A stretch of 64,000 nucleotides of DNA, taken from contig NZ_JAPQFJ010000013.1 in the NCBI RefSeq assembly GCF_026738875.1, forward strand, positions 62,001-126,000, given 5' to 3'. Positions 6,056 through 64,000 of the stretch are shown here, in pieces. This stretch comes from Clostridium brassicae (GTDB lineage Bacteria; Bacillota; Clostridia; Clostridiales; Clostridiaceae). Under the pieces are notes generated by a model. It worked only from the letters and a program-made list of their open reading frames with translations. It was not told the origin of the DNA and did not search any database. A program made the translations under genes and the position numbers. How positions within the stretch are numbered: position 1 is the first letter of the stretch; each line of letters starts with the position of its first letter.

Positions 6056-6190
6056 GTTTAGTTTCAAAAGAGAGTTATTTTTAAAAACTTCATTTATGTT
6101 TCTAAGTTTATTTTTATACTACAAAGTAACAAGAAAATTTGTATGTGAATAAAATAAATTAGTAAACTATTTTTAAATGGAGGAAGTTTT

Positions 6191-7345
6191 ATGCAAATTA
6201 ATAATGATAGACTTATAAAAATAAATGAATATCATTTTAAGCAAATTGATGATATAAAGCTTAAATTAATAAATGAAGGAAAAAATATTATTGATTTAGG
6301 GATAGGTGACCCAGATATAAAAACAAATTGTAAGATAATAAACGCTTTAATTGCAGGCTTAGAATACAAAGATTTTAATAAATATCCCTCTTATGAAGGA
6401 ATAAAAGAATTAAAAACAAAAATAGCTAAATACTATTATGATGTGTATTCTGTAAAGTTGGATTTAGATGAGATTTTAATACTTATTGGTTCAAAAGAGG
6501 GGCTGAGTAATATAATACCTGCTGTTTGCAATTTTGGAGATTATGTTATAGTTCCTAATCCAGCTTATCCTGTTTATGAAAAATGCTCATATTTATGGGG
6601 AGCTAAACCATACAGTGTACCTTTAAAAGAAGAAAATAAATATCTTTTAAATGTAAAAGATATACCAGATCACATATCCGAAAAAAGCAAGCTTATGATA
6701 ATAAATTATCCAAATAATCCTACAGGAGCTGTTGCTAATAAAAAATTTTATTTAGAGTTAATACAATATTGTAAAGAAAAAAACATAGTTTTATGTAACG
6801 ATGGTGCCTATAATGAAATAATTGGAGCTGATGAAAAAAATATTAGCATTTTGCAATATGATAAGAATATTTGTATTGAATTTGGGACATTATCAAAAAC
6901 ATATAATATGACTGGTTTTAGAATAGGATATGCTGTAGGAAATAAAAAAATCCTAAATAATCTATTAAAAGTAAAATCTAATATAGATTCAGGTCAATTT
7001 AAGCCTATTCAATATGCAGCTATAGAAGCTTTGAGTTTACCACGAGAGTATGTAATTGATATAAGAAAAATATATGATGAAAGAAGAAGCTTAGCTAAAA
7101 AAATTTTAAAAAAGAAAAACATACAATTTTATGATTCAAAAGGTACTTTTTATATATGGTGTAAGACTCCAAAAAATTATATTACTGAGGAGTTTTGTAA
7201 AGACATATTATTTAAATGTGGTATAATTGTTACGCCAGGAGATACTTTTGGAGTTTGTGGTAAAGGATATTTTAGAATAGCTTTAACTGTTAATAAAAGT
7301 AATTTAATAGGAGCTTTAAATAGTTTTAAAGTGTATGATAAGTAG
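6191..7345 (+). CDS. PLP-dependent class I aminotransferase (LL-DAP aminotransferase-like)
   Basis: A 384-residue fold-type I aminotransferase. The segments DLGIGDPD and NYPNNPTGA match the family, and the PLP-binding lysine is Lys236 in LSKTYNMTGFRIGYAVG. The overall pattern resembles the LL-diaminopimelate aminotransferase/aspartate aminotransferase subgroup, but the exact substrate cannot be fixed. It stands alone, not in a lysine biosynthesis cluster. The start ATG is preceded by GGAGG. Many consecutive A-ending codons make it slightly more AT-rich than its neighbours. Confidence 0.8.
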   Translation: MQINNDRLIKINEYHFKQIDDIKLKLINEGKNIIDLGIGDPDIKTNCKIINALIAGLEYKDFNKYPSYEGIKELKTKIAKYYYDVYSVKLDLDEILILIGSKEGLSNIIPAVCNFGDYVIVPNPAYPVYEKCSYLWGAKPYSVPLKEENKYLLNVKDIPDHISEKSKLMIINYPNNPTGAVANKKFYLELIQYCKEKNIVLCNDGAYNEIIGADEKNISILQYDKNICIEFGTLSKTYNMTGFRIGYAVGNKKILNNLLKVKSNIDSGQFKPIQYAAIEALSLPREYVIDIRKIYDERRSLAKKILKKKNIQFYDSKGTFYIWCKTPKNYITEEFCKDILFKCGIIVTPGDTFGVCGKGYFRIALTVNKSNLIGALNSFKVYDK

Positions 7346-56241: not shown

Positions 56242-58535
56242 ATGAAAAACATCAAAAAATTTAAATTAAATCTTATGGGAAAATTAACTGGTTATTTTCT
56301 TGCTTTAATCATTATACCCGTAATAGTTTTAGGTTATTTCTCTTACGATGGTGCAAAAAAATCTTTACAAACAGAAGCGGAAAGTAAAATAAAAATCACT
56401 TTAGATTCTGCTGTAAACGATTTGAATATGAAAACATCACAAATAAAAGAACAAGTAAATTTAATAGCCAATTTGTCACAAATAGAATCATTTTTAGAGA
56501 GTTACAATATTGGCAAAGTAGAGGCTACTGTAGAAGGAAATGTTAAAAAGTTAATATTAGATTATCAGAAATCCGCTTCAGATATGACTTCGGGAATTTT
56601 TCTTGCGGATAATAAAGGGAATATTATACTAGATTCAAATAATAGTAAGGGAATAAATATATTAGATAGAGATTATTTTAAAGAAAGTATTTCTGGCAAT
56701 CCAACTTGGAGTGGAGTTCTCACATCTAAGGTGTCTAATAAACCAGAAATAAATTATAGTTGTCCTATAAAAAGTCAAGATGGCAAAGTAAAAGGGGTTA
56801 TTGTTGCAAGTATAAAATTTGAGTCTATAACTAATTTATTGGCACAAGTAAAATCAGGCGAATCAGGGTATGCTTTTATGGTGGATGAAAACGGTTTAGT
56901 TTTATATCATCCTGATAAAGATAAGATATTAAAAGAAAATATGGTAGAGACTTATAAAGATAATTCAGGATTAACTAATATATTAAAATCAATGTTGGCA
57001 GATAAAGAGGGAGATGGAGTTTATGAGTATTCTGGAGTAGAAAAATATGTGGCATATAAGCCTTTCGAAAGTTGGTCTGTGGCTATAAATATTCCAGTTA
57101 AAGAATATATGGTAGGGGCCATAAATATTAGAAATAAAACTATAGCTATTTCAATAATTGCAATCATAATCGGTGCATTAGTTGCAATTGTAGTATCTAA
57201 AAAAATCACTAATCCAATTAAAAGTCTTATGGTATTAATGGGCAAAGCAAAAGAAGGAGACCTAACTGTTAGAAGTGAAATTAAATTAGATGATGAAATA
57301 GGACAGTTATCAAATAGTTTTAATGCTATGTTAGCAGGTCAACAAAATGCAGTAATAGAGGTGTTAAGTACTGCAAAAGATGTTGAGGCATCTTCAAAAA
57401 TTGTTGGAGAATCAGCTTCAGAAATGGCAGCAGCAGCAGAAAATCAAAGCTCCTCATCAGAGGAATTAACTGCTACTATTAATGAGATGAGTACATCTAT
57501 TGTTGAGGCTTCAGAAAGTATTTCTAGTATTTCTGAAAATGTTAATAATATTTCATGTTCTACTGGTGAAATGAGTAAAAGTTCTACTGAAATGTCTAAG
57601 AAGGTAGAAGAAACGGCGGCAATGATGATTGAAGTTACAAAGTCTTTACAGGAGATGGATGCTTCTATAGAGATGGTAGCAAGTAACTCTAGCAAAGCAA
57701 ATGATGAAGCGTTAAAAACTGAGGACTTAGCTAAAGAAGGAAGAGTTAAGTTATTGTAAACAGTACTATTAAAGAAATGGATAATGTAATTTATGTAGTA
57801 GATAATTTGACAGAAGTGATAAAAGGCTTGGGAAATGTAGCAGTTCAAATTGGAGATATTATTGAAGTTATTGATGATATAGCTGAACAAACAAACCTTT
57901 TGGCGCTAAATGCATCTATTGAAGCTGCTAGAGCTGGAGAGCATGGGAAAGGATTTGCAGTGGTGGCTGGAGCTGTTGGTAGTTTGGCTGAAAAATCCGG
58001 AGAAGCTACAAAGGATATTACAAAATTGATTAAACAAATTCAGCAGGAAGTAAAATATGCTATTGCTACTACTGAAAATGGGGCTAATCAAGTAGGAAAG
58101 GGAGTTAATTTAGTAAAAGATACAGGTAATTCCTTGGATAACATATTTGAAGCTATTAAAAAGACTACTGAATCAATAAATGAAATTGCTAAAATTACAT
58201 TGGAACAATCTAAATTTAGCAAATCTATAATGAATTCCATTGAAAAAGTAAATGAATTAAGCATACAAGCTTCAGCATTGGTGGAAGAACAATCTGCATC
58301 AGCAGGTGAGATGGCGTTAGAAGTTGAAAGAGTTAATGGTTTAATTCAACAATTAGCAAGTGTGTCAGAAGAACAATCATCAAGTAGTGAGGAAATATTA
58401 GCAACATCAGAAAATGTAAGCGATTCAGCAAGTGAAGTTGCTACAGGTGCGGAGGAATTGTCAACTACAGCAGATAATATGGCTAATAGAGCGAATAAAT
58501 TAATTGAGACAGTATCTATCTTTAAGATTGAATAA
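56242..58535 (+). pseudogene. Methyl-accepting chemotaxis protein broken by a single-base frameshift
   Basis: The first part (56242-57759) encodes an N-terminal membrane span, a double-Cache-type sensor (about 35-285), a second span (about 295-318), a HAMP domain and the first methylation helix, then hits TAA at 57757. The second part continues one frame away from about 57750 to 58535 with the signalling hairpin (AEQTNLLALNASIEAARAGE) and second methylation helix. Adding one A in TTAAGTT (57746-57752) would restore an open frame reading GRVKVIVNSTIKEM across the join. So the gene is a recent pseudogene, or the sequence has one missing base. It precedes cheW and cheA. Confidence 0.9.
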
Positions 58536-58552
58536 TTATGGAGGAAGTATTG

Positions 58553-58978
58553 ATGGATGAAAAACAATATGTAGTTTTTAGTCTTAAGGATGAGGAATAT
58601 GCTATAGATATAATGCAAATATATGAAGTTGATAGGTTAAAGGAAATAAAAATAACAGCTATTCCAAGAGTACCAAATTACATAGAAGGCATAATAAATT
58701 TGAGAGGGGAAGTTGTACCTATAATAAATTTAAGAAAACGATTAGGATTAGAGGAAAAGGCGATAGATAAGCAATCTAGGATAATTATTATAAGAATTGA
58801 GGGGAAGGCAATTGGTATTTTAGTGGATAGTATAGATAATGTTATATCTTTTGTAGAAGAGGAATTATATGATCCACCAGAAGAAGTTAAAAATAATTGT
58901 GAATACATAAAAAAGGTTGGAGACAAAGGTAATAGGTTAATATTTATTTTGGACGTGTACAGTATATTAACAAGTTAA
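58553..58978 (+). CDS. cheW: Chemotaxis coupling protein CheW
   Basis: A 141-residue coupling protein linking chemoreceptors to CheA. It has the CheW fold with YVVFSLKDEEYAIDIMQIYE, NYIEGIINLRGEVVPIINLR and VDSIDNVI. The ATG at 58553 is chosen because GGAGG lies seven bases upstream; an ATG at 58538 lies before that site. It follows the broken MCP by 17 bases and precedes cheA. Confidence 0.95.
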   Translation: MDEKQYVVFSLKDEEYAIDIMQIYEVDRLKEIKITAIPRVPNYIEGIINLRGEVVPIINLRKRLGLEEKAIDKQSRIIIIRIEGKAIGILVDSIDNVISFVEEELYDPPEEVKNNCEYIKKVGDKGNRLIFILDVYSILTS

Positions 58979-59031
58979 ATACCTTAAAGGTCATAAATTA
59001 TTTTGACTAATAGGGAGGTAATTTTAATAAT

Positions 59032-61086
59032 ATGAATAATTTTGACGTAGATGACATTTGTATGAATATGTTTTTACAGGAAACAAAAGAGCAAATAGAA
59101 AAAATGGAAGAGGATTGCATTTACTTGGAGGGTTCTGATTATAGTGATGAAATTATTAATAGAATTTTCAGAATGGCACATTCTCTGAAAGGTTCCTCGG
59201 CTACTATAGGATTTGTAGAAATATCTAATTTAGCTCACAATGTTGAAAGTCTGTTAGACAAAATAAGATCAAAGGATGTATTGATAGATGATAGTGTAAC
59301 TGATGTATTACTTCAGAGTATTGATGTTTTAAAAAATATGCATTGGTGTATAAGTCAGGGACAATCATGTGATGTAGATACAAAATCTTTGATAGATAAC
59401 ATGAAGAAAATTATAGACAACAATGTCCATAAGAATACTAATTCAACTAATGCTGAAGATGTGGTAAAAGAAGATGGAGGTTTTGAAGTTGATAATGAAA
59501 AGCTTCCTGTAAGCGAAGAAGAATACGTTTTATGCGATAAGGTGGATTCTAAGTTTGATGTATATAAAGTGAAGATAGCAATGGATAAAAATATTAAAAT
59601 GAAATCTGTAAAAGGTTTTATGATAGAGAGTGCTTTATGCCGTATTAGTGACATTGTAAAGATTGAACCAGCAGATTTTGAAGAGGTCTCAGAAGAAACT
59701 TATGATGGAATACTAAGTGCAATTATTGCTACAACAAAGAGTTATGAGGAAATACATAAAAATATTATTGCTGTTTCTGAAATAGATAATGTTTATATTA
59801 AGAATATTAGATCAAAAGTGTGTAGTAATAGTGAGGTAAATGTTAAGAAAAATTCCCAGGTAGAGAATAAACATAAAAAGCATGAAGCTTCCACTATAAG
59901 AATGGATGTAAATAAAATAGATAAGTTGCTGAATTTAGTTGGAGAATTTATTATAGACAAGGAAGCATTAAGTCAGATAGCACAAGAATTAAAAAGAAAA
60001 TATAAAAAAGAACCTTTAGCGGGCAAGTTGTGGAATTTAATTTCTCATATAAATTATATAAGTGAGGATTTGCAAGAAACAGTTATGTCCACTAGGATGC
60101 TTCCTTTAGAGAATATATTTAGTAGATTTCCAAGGATGGTTAGGGATTTGTCTAAAAAATGTAATAAAAAAATAGAGTTTATAGTTGAAGGGCAACATAC
60201 GGAGATTGATAGAGGAATTATAGAAGAGCTCATTGATCCCATAACACATATAATAAGAAATGCTATAGATCATGGAATTGAATCTCCTGATGAAAGGAAG
60301 GAAAAAGGAAAAAAAGAATTGGCCACATTGAAATTGAGTGCAAGGCATTTAGAAAATAATGTGGTAATTGAAATTGAGGATGATGGTAGGGGAATTTCTG
60401 TAGATAAAATAAGAAAAAAAGTGATTCAGAAAAAATTAGCCACTGAAGAGGAGTTAAATACTTTACAAGACAAGGATGTAATAAAATATATATTTGAAGC
60501 AGGGTTTTCTACTGTAGATAATGTAAGCGATATTTCAGGTAGAGGTGTAGGACTTGATGTGGTAAAATCAAATATTGGAAATTTGAATGGGCTAATTGAT
60601 ATAAATACAAAAGAAGGTATAGGAACAAAATTTATTATTAAGCTTCCATTAACATTAGCAATAATACAAGCATTGCTTATTGAAGAGGATAAGTATATAT
60701 TCGCAATACCAATTACATCGATAATAGAGACTGTTAGATTGAAAGGCAAGGAAATTGAAGAAAAGATACATAAAGTAAATAATATTGAGGTGTATAAGTG
60801 GAGAGATGAAATTATTCCAGTAATTAGAATTGGAAGGTATTTCAAGGTGTACAAAGACGAAATAGAGGATAAGATGTTTCTTGTTATAGTAGGGTATGCT
60901 GAAAAAAGGGTTGCTTTTGTGGTTAATAAATTATTAGGGGAGAGAGAGATTGTTATAAAATCTATAGGAGAATTTAGTGGAGAAAATAAATTGATGGGTT
61001 CCTTAAAAGGGATTTCAGGGGTAAGTATATTGGGTGATGGGAGTTTTGCTCAAGTAATTGATGTTTCTTCAATAATAAAAGGATGA
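59032..61086 (+). CDS. cheA: Chemotaxis histidine kinase CheA
   Basis: A 684-residue histidine kinase that phosphorylates CheY. N-terminal HPt domain with the phosphoacceptor His50 in RMAHSLKGSSATIGF, a P2-like region (about 165-260), dimerisation domain near 300 (RMDVNKIDKLLNLVGEF), the ATPase domain with RNAIDHGIESP, DDGRGIS and SGRGVGLDVVKSN, and a C-terminal CheW-like domain. Its GGGAGG site is 13 bases from the ATG, a long spacing. Confidence 0.96.
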   Translation: MNNFDVDDICMNMFLQETKEQIEKMEEDCIYLEGSDYSDEIINRIFRMAHSLKGSSATIGFVEISNLAHNVESLLDKIRSKDVLIDDSVTDVLLQSIDVLKNMHWCISQGQSCDVDTKSLIDNMKKIIDNNVHKNTNSTNAEDVVKEDGGFEVDNEKLPVSEEEYVLCDKVDSKFDVYKVKIAMDKNIKMKSVKGFMIESALCRISDIVKIEPADFEEVSEETYDGILSAIIATTKSYEEIHKNIIAVSEIDNVYIKNIRSKVCSNSEVNVKKNSQVENKHKKHEASTIRMDVNKIDKLLNLVGEFIIDKEALSQIAQELKRKYKKEPLAGKLWNLISHINYISEDLQETVMSTRMLPLENIFSRFPRMVRDLSKKCNKKIEFIVEGQHTEIDRGIIEELIDPITHIIRNAIDHGIESPDERKEKGKKELATLKLSARHLENNVVIEIEDDGRGISVDKIRKKVIQKKLATEEELNTLQDKDVIKYIFEAGFSTVDNVSDISGRGVGLDVVKSNIGNLNGLIDINTKEGIGTKFIIKLPLTLAIIQALLIEEDKYIFAIPITSIIETVRLKGKEIEEKIHKVNNIEVYKWRDEIIPVIRIGRYFKVYKDEIEDKMFLVIVGYAEKRVAFVVNKLLGEREIVIKSIGEFSGENKLMGSLKGISGVSILGDGSFAQVIDVSSIIKG

Positions 61087-61194
61087 AAAAGGTGTGCTTT
61101 TAAATAGGAAATGCTTTGTAGTGCAATTATGTCTTTGTGATAATATTTAATATTATTTAAAATAAAAAATGTAACACGAAAGGAGAACTTATTT

Positions 61195-61560
61195 ATGCGT
61201 GTATTAATAGTAGATGATTCTGAATTTATGAGGCTTTCAATTAAAAAGGTATTAGATGAGAATAATATAGAGGTTATTGGAGAAGCTAAAGATGGTGTTG
61301 AAGCTGTTAATAAGTACAAGTTATTAAAGCCGTCTTTAGTGACAATGGATTTAACTATGCCCAAAATGGAAGGAGAAAATGCTATAAAAGAGATAATAAG
61401 CTATGATCCAGATGCAAAAATTATTGTGTGTTCAGCTATGGGTCAAGAAACAAGAGTTATGCGTGCAATTAAATCTGGTGCTAAGACATTTATAGTTAAA
61501 CCATTAAATGCAGAAAGATTATTAGATGAAATACAGAGAATAAAAAGTGGAGAACTTTAA
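61195..61560 (+). CDS. cheY: CheY-type response regulator
   Basis: A 121-residue single receiver domain. The acidic pocket is Asp7 and Asp8 (IVDDSE), the phosphorylated Asp52 is in TMDLTMPKMEGE, and the conserved lysine is in FIVKPL near residue 101. It is the output of the adjacent CheA. No cheR, cheB, cheC or cheD gene is in this cluster. GGAGAAC precedes the ATG. Confidence 0.95.
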   Translation: MRVLIVDDSEFMRLSIKKVLDENNIEVIGEAKDGVEAVNKYKLLKPSLVTMDLTMPKMEGENAIKEIISYDPDAKIIVCSAMGQETRVMRAIKSGAKTFIVKPLNAERLLDEIQRIKSGEL

Positions 61561-62394: not shown

Positions 62395-62423
62395 TTGACT
62401 TAGAGTAATATAATTGCTATAAT
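62395..62423 (+). promoter_or_regulatory. Promoter of the hydrogenase-like/ABC operon
   Basis: TTGACT (62395-62400), exactly 17 bases, TATAAT (62418-62423). The region 62149-62390 before it is AT-rich and empty. The leader to the first gene is about 145 bases. Confidence 0.85.
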
Positions 62424-62441
62424 GTAAAACACGGGCGTAAA

Positions 62442-62460
62442 TGATATTGATTCTCAATTA
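62442..62460 (+). promoter_or_regulatory. Possible Fur box
   Basis: TGATATTGATTCTCAATTA lies about 12-30 bases after the predicted start, a repressing position. It resembles the iron-regulator Fur site (13 of 19 positions to the classical GATAATGATAATCATTATC by eye, in the best register). The match is suggestive only. Confidence 0.45.
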
Positions 62461-62575
62461 TTACCTGGCTGTTATAAACATAGTATGAACAGTTTTATAT
62501 GTTGAATAAGATAACCTACAAAATATTTTATAAAAGAATTAATAAACATTACAAATAAAAGATTGGAAAGTTGGA

Positions 62576-63214
62576 ATGAGCATGAATTATATTTGGATAA
62601 ACCCAGTAGTTAAAGCTATGTATTTTGATAAATTAGAGGATTTGGTAAGAGAACTAGAAAATAAGGGATATAAAGTTGTAGAACCTCCAAGTCAAGTAGA
62701 AATAGTAAAAGATAAATTTAAACACACATGTATAAAAGAAGGAAAGATAGTACTTGATACAAGATGTCCAGCTGCTATTGAATATATAAAAGAAAATCTA
62801 AAAAACGATGATTTTTATATACCTAATATAGAACCTATATTAATTCACAGTGCCAGAGTGCTGTATAATATATACATAAGGGATAATAAAGAGAATGCAC
62901 TTATTATAACTACTCCATGCAGTTCACTAAGAAACATGGGAAACTACATATTCAAAGAGGAGAAAAAATGTGGAGTTGCTTTTAAAACTTGGAATGATAT
63001 ATGCAAAAAATTAGATATAAAAAAAGAAGAGAAGTGCAGTATATCTCCTATACCTCTTGGGTTTTTTAGAGATTTAAATTTGAATGTTTTAGAAGTAAGT
63101 GGACAACAAAAAGTATTAAAAGCAGTAAAAAACGCAGTAGAGAGTAATGAGGATATCAATCTTGTAGAAATACTACTGTGTGAAGGAGGATGCAATGCGG
63201 GAGATGGCGTATAA
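62576..63214 (+). CDS. Stand-alone [FeFe]-hydrogenase H-cluster-like domain protein
   Basis: A 212-residue protein resembling a shrunken [FeFe]-hydrogenase catalytic domain. The four cysteines that hold the H-cluster 4Fe-4S unit have counterparts in order: Cys64 (DTRCPAAIEYI, hydrogenase TSCCPxW), Cys115 (TTPCSSLRN, MPCxxKxxE), Cys202 and Cys206 (LLCEGGCNAGDG, MACPGGCxNGGG). The proton-shuttle cysteine beside Cys64 is Arg63, and the PCxxK lysine is replaced, so hydrogenase activity is unlikely. No ferredoxin domain or membrane span. It overlaps the ABC permease by 20 bases, the permease ribosome binding site lying in the CEGGC codons. A role as an iron-sulfur sensor or carrier is inference. 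Confidence 0.75.
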   Translation: MSMNYIWINPVVKAMYFDKLEDLVRELENKGYKVVEPPSQVEIVKDKFKHTCIKEGKIVLDTRCPAAIEYIKENLKNDDFYIPNIEPILIHSARVLYNIYIRDNKENALIITTPCSSLRNMGNYIFKEEKKCGVAFKTWNDICKKLDIKKEEKCSISPIPLGFFRDLNLNVLEVSGQQKVLKAVKNAVESNEDINLVEILLCEGGCNAGDGV

Positions 63215-63971
63215 GTTAAAAGGATATATAGTTGTTGTATTAATAATTATTATATGGTGTATTGGTAGTGTGAATAATTATTGGAGTGGATACATATTAC
63301 CTTCACCAGAAACTGTTTTAGGGACTTTTATTAGTCTTGTAAGTTCAGGAACTTTATTTAAGCATATAGGACAAAGTTTAATAAGAATTTTATTAGGGTT
63401 CTTTATAACATTGATTTTAGGAATACCTTTGGGAATACTATTTGGAGTAAATAAAAAAATATATGTTTATTTTAAGCCAATATTAGAATTTATAAGACAT
63501 ACTCCTCCTTTAGCTTTAGTGCCAATGCTCATTTTATGGTTTGGTATAGGAGAAAAATCCAAAATAATAATAATAGTTTTAGCTTCATTCTTTCCTGTAT
63601 TTTTAAATACCATAAAAGGGGTTGAAGGTTGTGATAAGAAGTTAATAGAAGTAGGAAAAGTTTTTAATTTAACTAAAAGACAGATATTTTTTAAGATAGT
63701 AATACCATCAGCTTTACCCAATATATTAGTTGGAATGAAGCTGGGTATAGGATATAGTTGGAGAGCTATAATAGGAGCAGAAATGGTAGCAGCATCTTCT
63801 GGATTGGGATATCTTATTTTAGATGGACAACAACTTTCTAGATCCGATGTTGTAGTTGTAGGTATTTTATCAATAGGGATATTAGGAAGCTTAATGGATT
63901 ATATATTTTCAATTTTAGTGAAAAAGATTAATGTTTGGAGACTAGAGGTAGATGCTAATGAAGGGGTATAG
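63195..63971 (+). CDS. NitT/TauT-type ABC transporter permease
   Basis: A 258-residue membrane protein with about six spans, of the SsuC/TauC/NrtB group. The start is ATG 63195 after GGAGGATGCA; an upstream in-frame ATG lies within that site. YILPSPETVLGTF is the typical periplasmic-face start, GIPLGILFG and the EAA-like loop GCDKKLIEVGKVFNLTKRQI are followed by GAEMVAASSGLGYLI. Usual substrates of the family are sulfonates, nitrate or thiamine precursors; the substrate here is unknown. It overlaps the ATPase gene by 14 bases. Confidence 0.93.
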   Translation: MREMAYKLKGYIVVVLIIIIWCIGSVNNYWSGYILPSPETVLGTFISLVSSGTLFKHIGQSLIRILLGFFITLILGIPLGILFGVNKKIYVYFKPILEFIRHTPPLALVPMLILWFGIGEKSKIIIIVLASFFPVFLNTIKGVEGCDKKLIEVGKVFNLTKRQIFFKIVIPSALPNILVGMKLGIGYSWRAIIGAEMVAASSGLGYLILDGQQLSRSDVVVVGILSIGILGSLMDYIFSILVKKINVWRLEVDANEGV

Positions 63972-64000
63972 AATAAATAACTTAAACAAAGCATATACGG
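63958..64000 (+). CDS. ABC transporter ATP-binding protein, N-terminus only
   Basis: The ATG at 63958 opens a frame that runs off the right edge, giving MKGYRINNLNKAYT. The pattern (short beta strand, then NLNKAY) fits the start of an SsuB/TauB-type ABC ATPase, and the 14-base overlap with the permease supports it. The Walker motifs lie outside the window, so the call rests on position and this short start. The substrate-binding protein is probably further downstream. Confidence 0.75.
   Translation, partial: MKGYRINNLNKAYT

Follow-up and report, generated by a model that had tools for sequence, protein, structure and literature searches.

A minimal hydrogenase-fold protein linked to a NitT/TauT-type importer and to signs of iron control in clostridia

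The closest described relatives of the protein considered here are the [FeFe]-hydrogenases, represented by CpI, A. woodii HydA and CbA5H, with which it appears to share the H-domain (PF02906). The protein, which we call HYD, is encoded near the end of a 64,000-nucleotide stretch of the Clostridium brassicae genome (contig NZ_JAPQFJ010000013.1, positions 62,001 to 126,000, forward strand; "the window" below), where its gene forms a cassette with those of a NitT/TauT-type ATP-binding cassette (ABC) importer. We read the whole, tentatively and at something short of even confidence, as an iron-starvation import cassette in which HYD frees iron from the imported compound. In a predicted model HYD has the hydrogenase fold throughout, and it keeps the four cluster cysteines in the same order, with the ExxxC..GC..G.G motif. 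It differs in being some 57 residues shorter between the L2 and L3 cysteines, in carrying arginine for the relay cysteine and leucine for the L2 lysine, and in lacking accessory clusters; its link to an importer and its apparent induction at low iron also set it apart, hydA of C. difficile going down instead (PMC6311696).

The importer resembles the SsuABC/TauABC systems in its permease and ATPase type and in a binding protein that passes the SsuA_fam model, and it departs from them in scoring below the listed equivalog cut-offs, in having no recurrent sulfonate enzyme beside it, and in the iron-repressor-type sites upstream. FhuF-type reductases are siderophore-iron reductases, each a cytosolic iron-sulfur protein that works with an iron-chelate ABC importer; HYD is likened to them in proposed role only, since PF02906 is the sole Pfam family to match it, even at E ≤ 10. 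Nar1/NARF, a cytosolic iron-sulfur protein assembly factor, is like HYD in having a hydrogenase-like fold without being a hydrogenase, and HYD differs from it in being bacterial, in having a single four-cysteine site and in lying in an importer operon. A Nar1-type second iron-sulfur site in an N-terminal domain is absent from HYD, in which the H-domain fills the model and no further cysteine is invariant. The best NCBIfam matches of the permease and ATPase are SaoP and SaoA of the Sec-assisted organometallic (SAO) system (PMC13188914), at 176.9 bits against a cut-off of 295 and 193.5 against 360; scores so far below rule out membership, and the SAO selenoprotein families do not recur beside the cassette, no search aimed at selenoprotein genes having been made. 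Searches of the open-access literature brought us no paper on HYD or the cassette as a system; a table entry (PMC6311696) lists it, and its transporter genes are mentioned in PMC7438776 and PMC5767170. Neither the fold nor the type of importer is novel in itself, but we know of no earlier account of the two combined under iron control.

The features of the locus are as follows (L and G numbers are our labels for locus records and genomes).
62395..62423, plus strand: sigma-70-type promoter by consensus match only, TTGACT-17-TATAAT, its second hexamer preceded by TG
62442..62456, no strand assigned: Fur-box-like site TGATATTGATTCTCA, 12/14 to TGATAATNATTATCA, 18 nt downstream of the -10
62576..63214, plus strand: HYD, minimal H-domain protein with four cysteines, 212 residues, start probably at 62582
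62762..62767, plus strand: Arg63-Cys64 codons, L1-type motif DTRCP
62918..62920, plus strand: Cys115 codon, L2-type motif TTPC, with Leu118 replacing lysine
63179..63193, plus strand: Cys202-xxx-Cys206 codons, L3-type motif E.LLCEGGCNAGDG
63180..63971, plus strand: ABC permease, BPD_transp_1, start GTG 63180 or ATG 63195
63952..64000, plus strand: start of the ABC ATPase, which runs on to L008 8683
L008 8729-9694, beyond the window end: binding protein, after the ATPase, closing the operon

The HYD reading frame is present in the window, and its true start is probably the ATG at 62582, which is conserved among homologues. The permease overlaps the 3′ end of HYD and the ATPase start falls inside the permease, so the coordinates bear out the translational overlap first proposed for these genes; the last gene of the operon encodes an SsuA-type lipoprotein. 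The source genome comprises 4.1 Mb in 71 contigs. The promoter pair scores 11/12, the best of 10 in the region against 5.6 expected. The importer has the NitT/TauT set, with an SsuA/TauA-type binding protein (SsuA_fam, 184.5 bits; cut-off 163.5), a BPD_transp_1 permease (PF00528, 109.2 bits; cut-off 26.4) that is SsuC/TauC/SaoP-like and below the listed NCBIfam equivalog cut-offs, and an ATPase assigned by NCBIfam matches that all fall below their cut-offs.

HYD itself matches PF02906 at 25.4 bits (cut-off 22.1) over residues 166-209 only, and an H-domain superposes on the predicted model, filling all 210 residues; this confident model argues for the hydrogenase fold put forward in the original prediction. 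A search of the PDB with the single sequence gave no convincing match, and one with the HYD profile gave weak matches (best E 0.23), most of them hydrogenases that align at the C-terminal motif. The profile alignment pairs each of Cys64, Cys115, Cys202 and Cys206 with an H-cluster cysteine, and together with the superposition it suggests that the four lie close to one another. They are the only invariant cysteines among the 24 invariant columns of an alignment of 39 HYD sequences, and they probably hold a [4Fe-4S] cluster. The L1 relay-cysteine position is arginine (Arg63) and the lysine position of the L2 motif MPCxxK is leucine (Leu118) in all 39; the SPIP motif and Asn9-Pro10 (212-residue numbering) are also conserved, as is Arg63, and HYD contains no ferredoxin-type domain or accessory cluster. 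Of these features, the original prediction had described the four cysteines and the missing relay cysteine, lysine and ferredoxin domains, and these stand as described.

That prediction had also placed HYD in one operon with a NitT/TauT importer, and the genomes surveyed show this linkage to be conserved. Nine of 98 genomes first surveyed match HYD at E ≤ 0.001, seven of them at full length (the window's own genome counts in both figures) and the other two as partial matches to long reading frames; a survey of the family found HYD in 12 of 206 genomes, again with its own. A search of named records with two short patterns drawn from the alignment yielded 40 HYD loci, a single-protein scan of genome contigs having found none, and HYD is linked to the importer in 38 of the 40, which rules out a chance or strain-specific association. 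The ortholog in Clostridium tetanomorphum DSM 4474 (L034) is 73% identical. The cassette appears in various clostridia and anaerobic Bacillota, Clostridioides included. Among 36 loci the only further family to recur as a neighbor, at a threshold of four or more loci, is an FmdE-fold protein. It lies 3′ of the binding protein in 10 of the 40 loci, and also at L023 10952-11497 and L081 926-1459 (minus strand); it keeps a His-Gly pair and lacks the cysteine motif that we take to be characteristic of FmdE.

Signs of iron control come from the DNA upstream of HYD. We scored the 150 bases before the gene against TGATAATNATTATCA in 40 loci (the window, L018 and L034-L071), and at least 12 of 14 positions match in 19 of them, compared with 1 of 159 control regions taken from before other genes of these loci. 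When the window's 300 bases before the gene are shuffled, its 12/14 site has p 0.027; such weight as this weak site carries comes from the Fur-box-like sites that relatives have at the same place. Four loci (L038, L040, L041 and L042) bear the exact C. difficile Fur consensus TGATAATVAWHWTCA (PMC6311696) 46 bases upstream, and the closed genome G512, with a HYD gene 88.5-90.7% identical to theirs, has a site one base off TGATAATVAWHWTCA. A different site, the palindrome GTTAG-N6-CTAAC, reaches 9/10 in 12 of the 40 loci and in 1 of the 159 controls. The two sets of loci do not overlap, the palindrome being found mainly in Lachnospiraceae and Anaerotignum; an Erysipelotrichaceae bin and L046 also carry it. 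Counts over eight genomes of this group give 75 exact palindromes and 16 copies of the reversed control. Across 18 regions such sites precede DtxR-family genes (L105, L111, L113, L114 and L116 by Pfam, L119 by reading), as well as feoA (L114), feoB (L117), genes for FecCD permeases (L103, L105) and a ZIP gene (L106). As some lineages have Fur-type sites and others DtxR-type ones, the cassette appears to be under whichever iron repressor its lineage uses. Iron control is fairly well supported, and the loci suggest that a direct repressor site lies upstream of HYD. Control by a known riboswitch was tried and set aside: Rfam gave no match at gathering score near the cassette in L008, L125, L127, L135, L136, L049 or L068, the sole such match being a T-box elsewhere in L127, and at E ≤ 1 in L127, L133, L134 and L135 it returned nothing beyond this T-box and an miRNA hit attributed to chance.

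Published data from C. difficile point the same way. CD630_29890-29920 are listed as ssuA2, ssuB2, ssuC2 and "Uncharacterized protein, iron hydrogenase-like" (PMC6311696), and to judge from gene order, annotation and organism, rather than from the strain 630 sequence, these genes are orthologous to L038-L042 and this is apparently the same cassette. Between low and high iron the last gene, CD630_29920, changes by log2 2.93 in RNA and 1.07 in protein, and between a fur mutant and the wild type by 4.38 and 5.83 (PMC6311696). The operon has the gene set of the cassette and depends on iron and Fur; it differs in being described as serving sulfonate transport and sulfur/iron co-regulation under indirect Fur control, and the parts of that paper available to us contain no discussion of the hydrogenase-like protein. 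CD2989 (ssuA2) has been assigned a SigH promoter and taken to serve an alternative sulfur supply (PMC7438776).

The importer also occurs alone. A search of 200 family genomes with the window permease turned up relatives, the closest 73% identical, where HYD has no match, and one HYD-less permease (L136) is 80% identical to that of the HYD cassette L023; we collected 25 such cassettes from 24 genomes. On a permease tree built by a quick method (67 rows, 43 with HYD and 24 without, the truncated L149 left out), HYD-less rows are nested at several points, and 6 changes suffice to explain the presence of HYD where shuffles require 19.9, none of 500 being as low. A relic of the HYD 3′ end stands directly before the permease in 2 of the 25 HYD-less cassettes (L129 and L136; about 0.1 expected from the motif rate), so at least some are losses, and since the transporter exists without HYD, HYD is not needed for transport as such. 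Defining an iron box as a Fur score of at least 12/14 or a palindrome score of at least 9/10 in the 250 bases upstream of the first cassette gene (L072 skipped), we found one in 34 of 42 cassettes with HYD and in 0 of 24 without (Fisher 1.7e-11, relatedness not corrected); HYD is the component that goes with iron boxes. The best Fur score in the 25 HYD-less loci, over 150 bases, is 11/14, in L136.

Thirteen of 149 loci, all HYD-less, share a leader core TRACAGARARGA-n-TCTRATCTG upstream of the permease (L133, L134, L135, L137-L140, L142-L144, L146, L147 and L149; for example L135 minus 6163-6305); it is absent from L127. Its predicted hairpin has A-rich internal loops, and in most loci what reads as a terminator-like hairpin comes next; only one of 10 predicted pairs shows two-sided change, and Rfam gave no match in the three loci searched (L133, L134 and L135). 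The leader is a candidate attenuator or riboswitch whose ligand could reveal the substrate of the transporter.

A four-cysteine protein that apparently rises in starvation, a nearly constant link to an importer and an altered but conserved pocket are together best explained, we believe, by a cytosolic step that frees iron. The cassette and the four invariant cysteines are observed, and the fold is given by a confident model; we infer the type of cluster, an iron-bearing substrate, and its reduction or the release of its iron. When iron is sufficient, the promoter would be shut by the lineage's own repressor, Fur or DtxR-type. When iron is short, the SsuA-like lipoprotein, permease and ATPase would import a small, probably anionic, iron-bearing compound, which HYD would encounter in the cytosol. 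HYD would be an H-domain cut to about 200 residues that retains the four-cysteine site, probably with [4Fe-4S], and has shed the residues on which the [2Fe] site and proton transfer depend. The pocket left empty, with the invariant Arg63 and Asn9-Pro10, could bind the imported complex beside the cluster, which would hand it an electron and so release iron. HYD would then act like an FhuF-type ferric-chelate reductase, outside that family. The original prediction had suggested a sensor, a chaperone or a redox step on the imported substrate; the signs of iron control, which it had missed, narrow this choice toward iron acquisition.

Several points weigh against this proposal. The iron-bearing substrate and the bound metal are things we infer, iron control could serve sulfur supply instead, and the cassette contains no evident electron donor. 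The binding protein has no invariant cysteine other than that of the lipobox and so offers no direct hint of iron. Iron-sulfur enzymes are usually repressed, not induced, when iron is low. As for the sites, the whole AT-rich window holds 2 Fur-like matches where 2.37 are expected, not beyond chance; the loci include near-copies, L038, L040, L041, L042 and G512 not being independent; the palindrome is no commoner than its control in 2 of the 8 genomes (G983, 5 vs 8; G985, 5 vs 5); and some palindrome sites precede genes that do not look iron-related, such as the peroxiredoxin- and enolase-like frames of L112 (by reading). Eight of the 42 HYD loci fall below the box threshold, six of them scoring Fur 11/14 (L036, L049, L055, L060, L063, L078) and two (L050, L070) having neither Fur box nor palindrome. 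Once relatedness is allowed for, the association of HYD with boxes comes down to 5 independent pairs, 3.4 the same way, 0 opposite and 1.6 without difference (p 0.25), and is suggestive only; loss of HYD may simply take the promoter away. Finally, the C. difficile study found no Fur site upstream of the operon and calls its control indirect, and hydA falls at low iron (PMC6311696).

Among other explanations, HYD could be an iron-sulfur carrier or scaffold that supplies clusters to essential proteins at low iron while the importer brings sulfur or a thiol, a role of the kind proposed for Nar1 with its likewise hydrogenase-like fold (PMC12991071). A hydrogenase-like fold stripped of catalytic residues, induction at low iron (PMC6311696) and an SsuA-type binding protein would suit such a role, but a carrier would have no need of so strict a tie to one importer (38/40), and the FmdE-fold protein is the only other neighbor to recur; we regard it as unlikely.

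Slightly less likely, in our judgment, is that the importer takes up an organosulfur compound that HYD cleaves or reduces, iron control then reflecting a coupling of sulfur to iron. The binding protein is above the SsuA_fam cut-off, and PMC6311696 interprets the operon as sulfonate transport with sulfur/iron co-regulation; against this, the FmdE-fold protein is the only further enzyme family in four or more of 36 loci, two iron-repressor-type sites in different lineages point to iron itself, and CD2989-2991 are induced, not lowered, by cysteine (unpublished data cited in PMC5767170).

That HYD senses redox state or iron and gates the transporter, or signals its substrate, seems doubtful. It is a small four-cysteine protein in one overlapping unit with a permease that can exist without it, yet Arg63, SPIP and Asn9-Pro10 resemble a binding or catalytic site, the H-domain fills the whole model and leaves no space for a signaling domain, and transcription seems to be iron-controlled already.

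In two of the 24 HYD-less genomes searched (G001 and G053) hydG has a single match at E ≤ 1e-80, which sits within the cassette, in two different positions (L127 2273-3697; L135 3076-4503, minus strand). One could imagine that the importer takes an H-cluster-related iron complex, for example an Fe-thiolate or Fe-carbonyl/cyanide, which HYD, an H-domain pared down to the [4Fe-4S] shell, dismantles with the [2Fe] pocket as its substrate pocket, and that the HYD-less importer left iron control and in these two genomes joined their only hydG, supplying that compound for H-cluster assembly; we think this improbable. Marginally more so is a role in handling an H-cluster ligand or precursor, the importer bringing an H-cluster compound that HYD would bind in the old [2Fe] pocket and from which it would recover iron. 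The hydG placement and the modeled H-domain fit it, but the cases are only two, hydG lies elsewhere in 19 other HYD-less genomes and has no match at that threshold in G012, G183 and G185, and the closed HYD genome G529 (L079) has neither HydF nor HydG above cut-off, yet has hydrogenase-type matches. (Besides HYD, G529 has four PF02906 matches, at 346.9, 334.6, 114.2 and 95.3 bits.)

A minimal but active [FeFe]-hydrogenase is scarcely credible: the H-domain fold, the four cysteines and HydF above cut-off in 30 of 35 HYD genomes would allow it, but arginine and leucine at the relay and [2Fe]-binding positions in 39/39 sequences rule it out on residues, and there is no ferredoxin-type domain. Co-occurrence of maturases, taken as a possible sign of a [2Fe] site, gives a mixed picture, with HydF above cut-off in most HYD genomes but neither HydF nor HydG above it in G529.

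Upstream in the window, at 56242-61560, lies what reads as a chemotaxis-type cluster of a methyl-accepting protein with CheW-, CheA- and CheY-like proteins; the methyl-accepting gene is split there into frames of 505 and 252 residues and is a single 762-residue frame in L018.

Our analysis suggests that the cassette is a previously undescribed route of iron acquisition. If so, a hydrogenase fold would have been recruited for obtaining iron, and an importer labeled in databases for sulfonate would belong to the iron-starvation response of clostridia, Clostridioides among them, which would give the unexplained iron-induced operon of C. difficile a testable function. HYD, being small and soluble, would also lend itself to studies of how an H-domain works without its [2Fe] site. 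The alternation of Fur-type and DtxR-type sites across lineages suggests that iron control was kept while the regulator changed.
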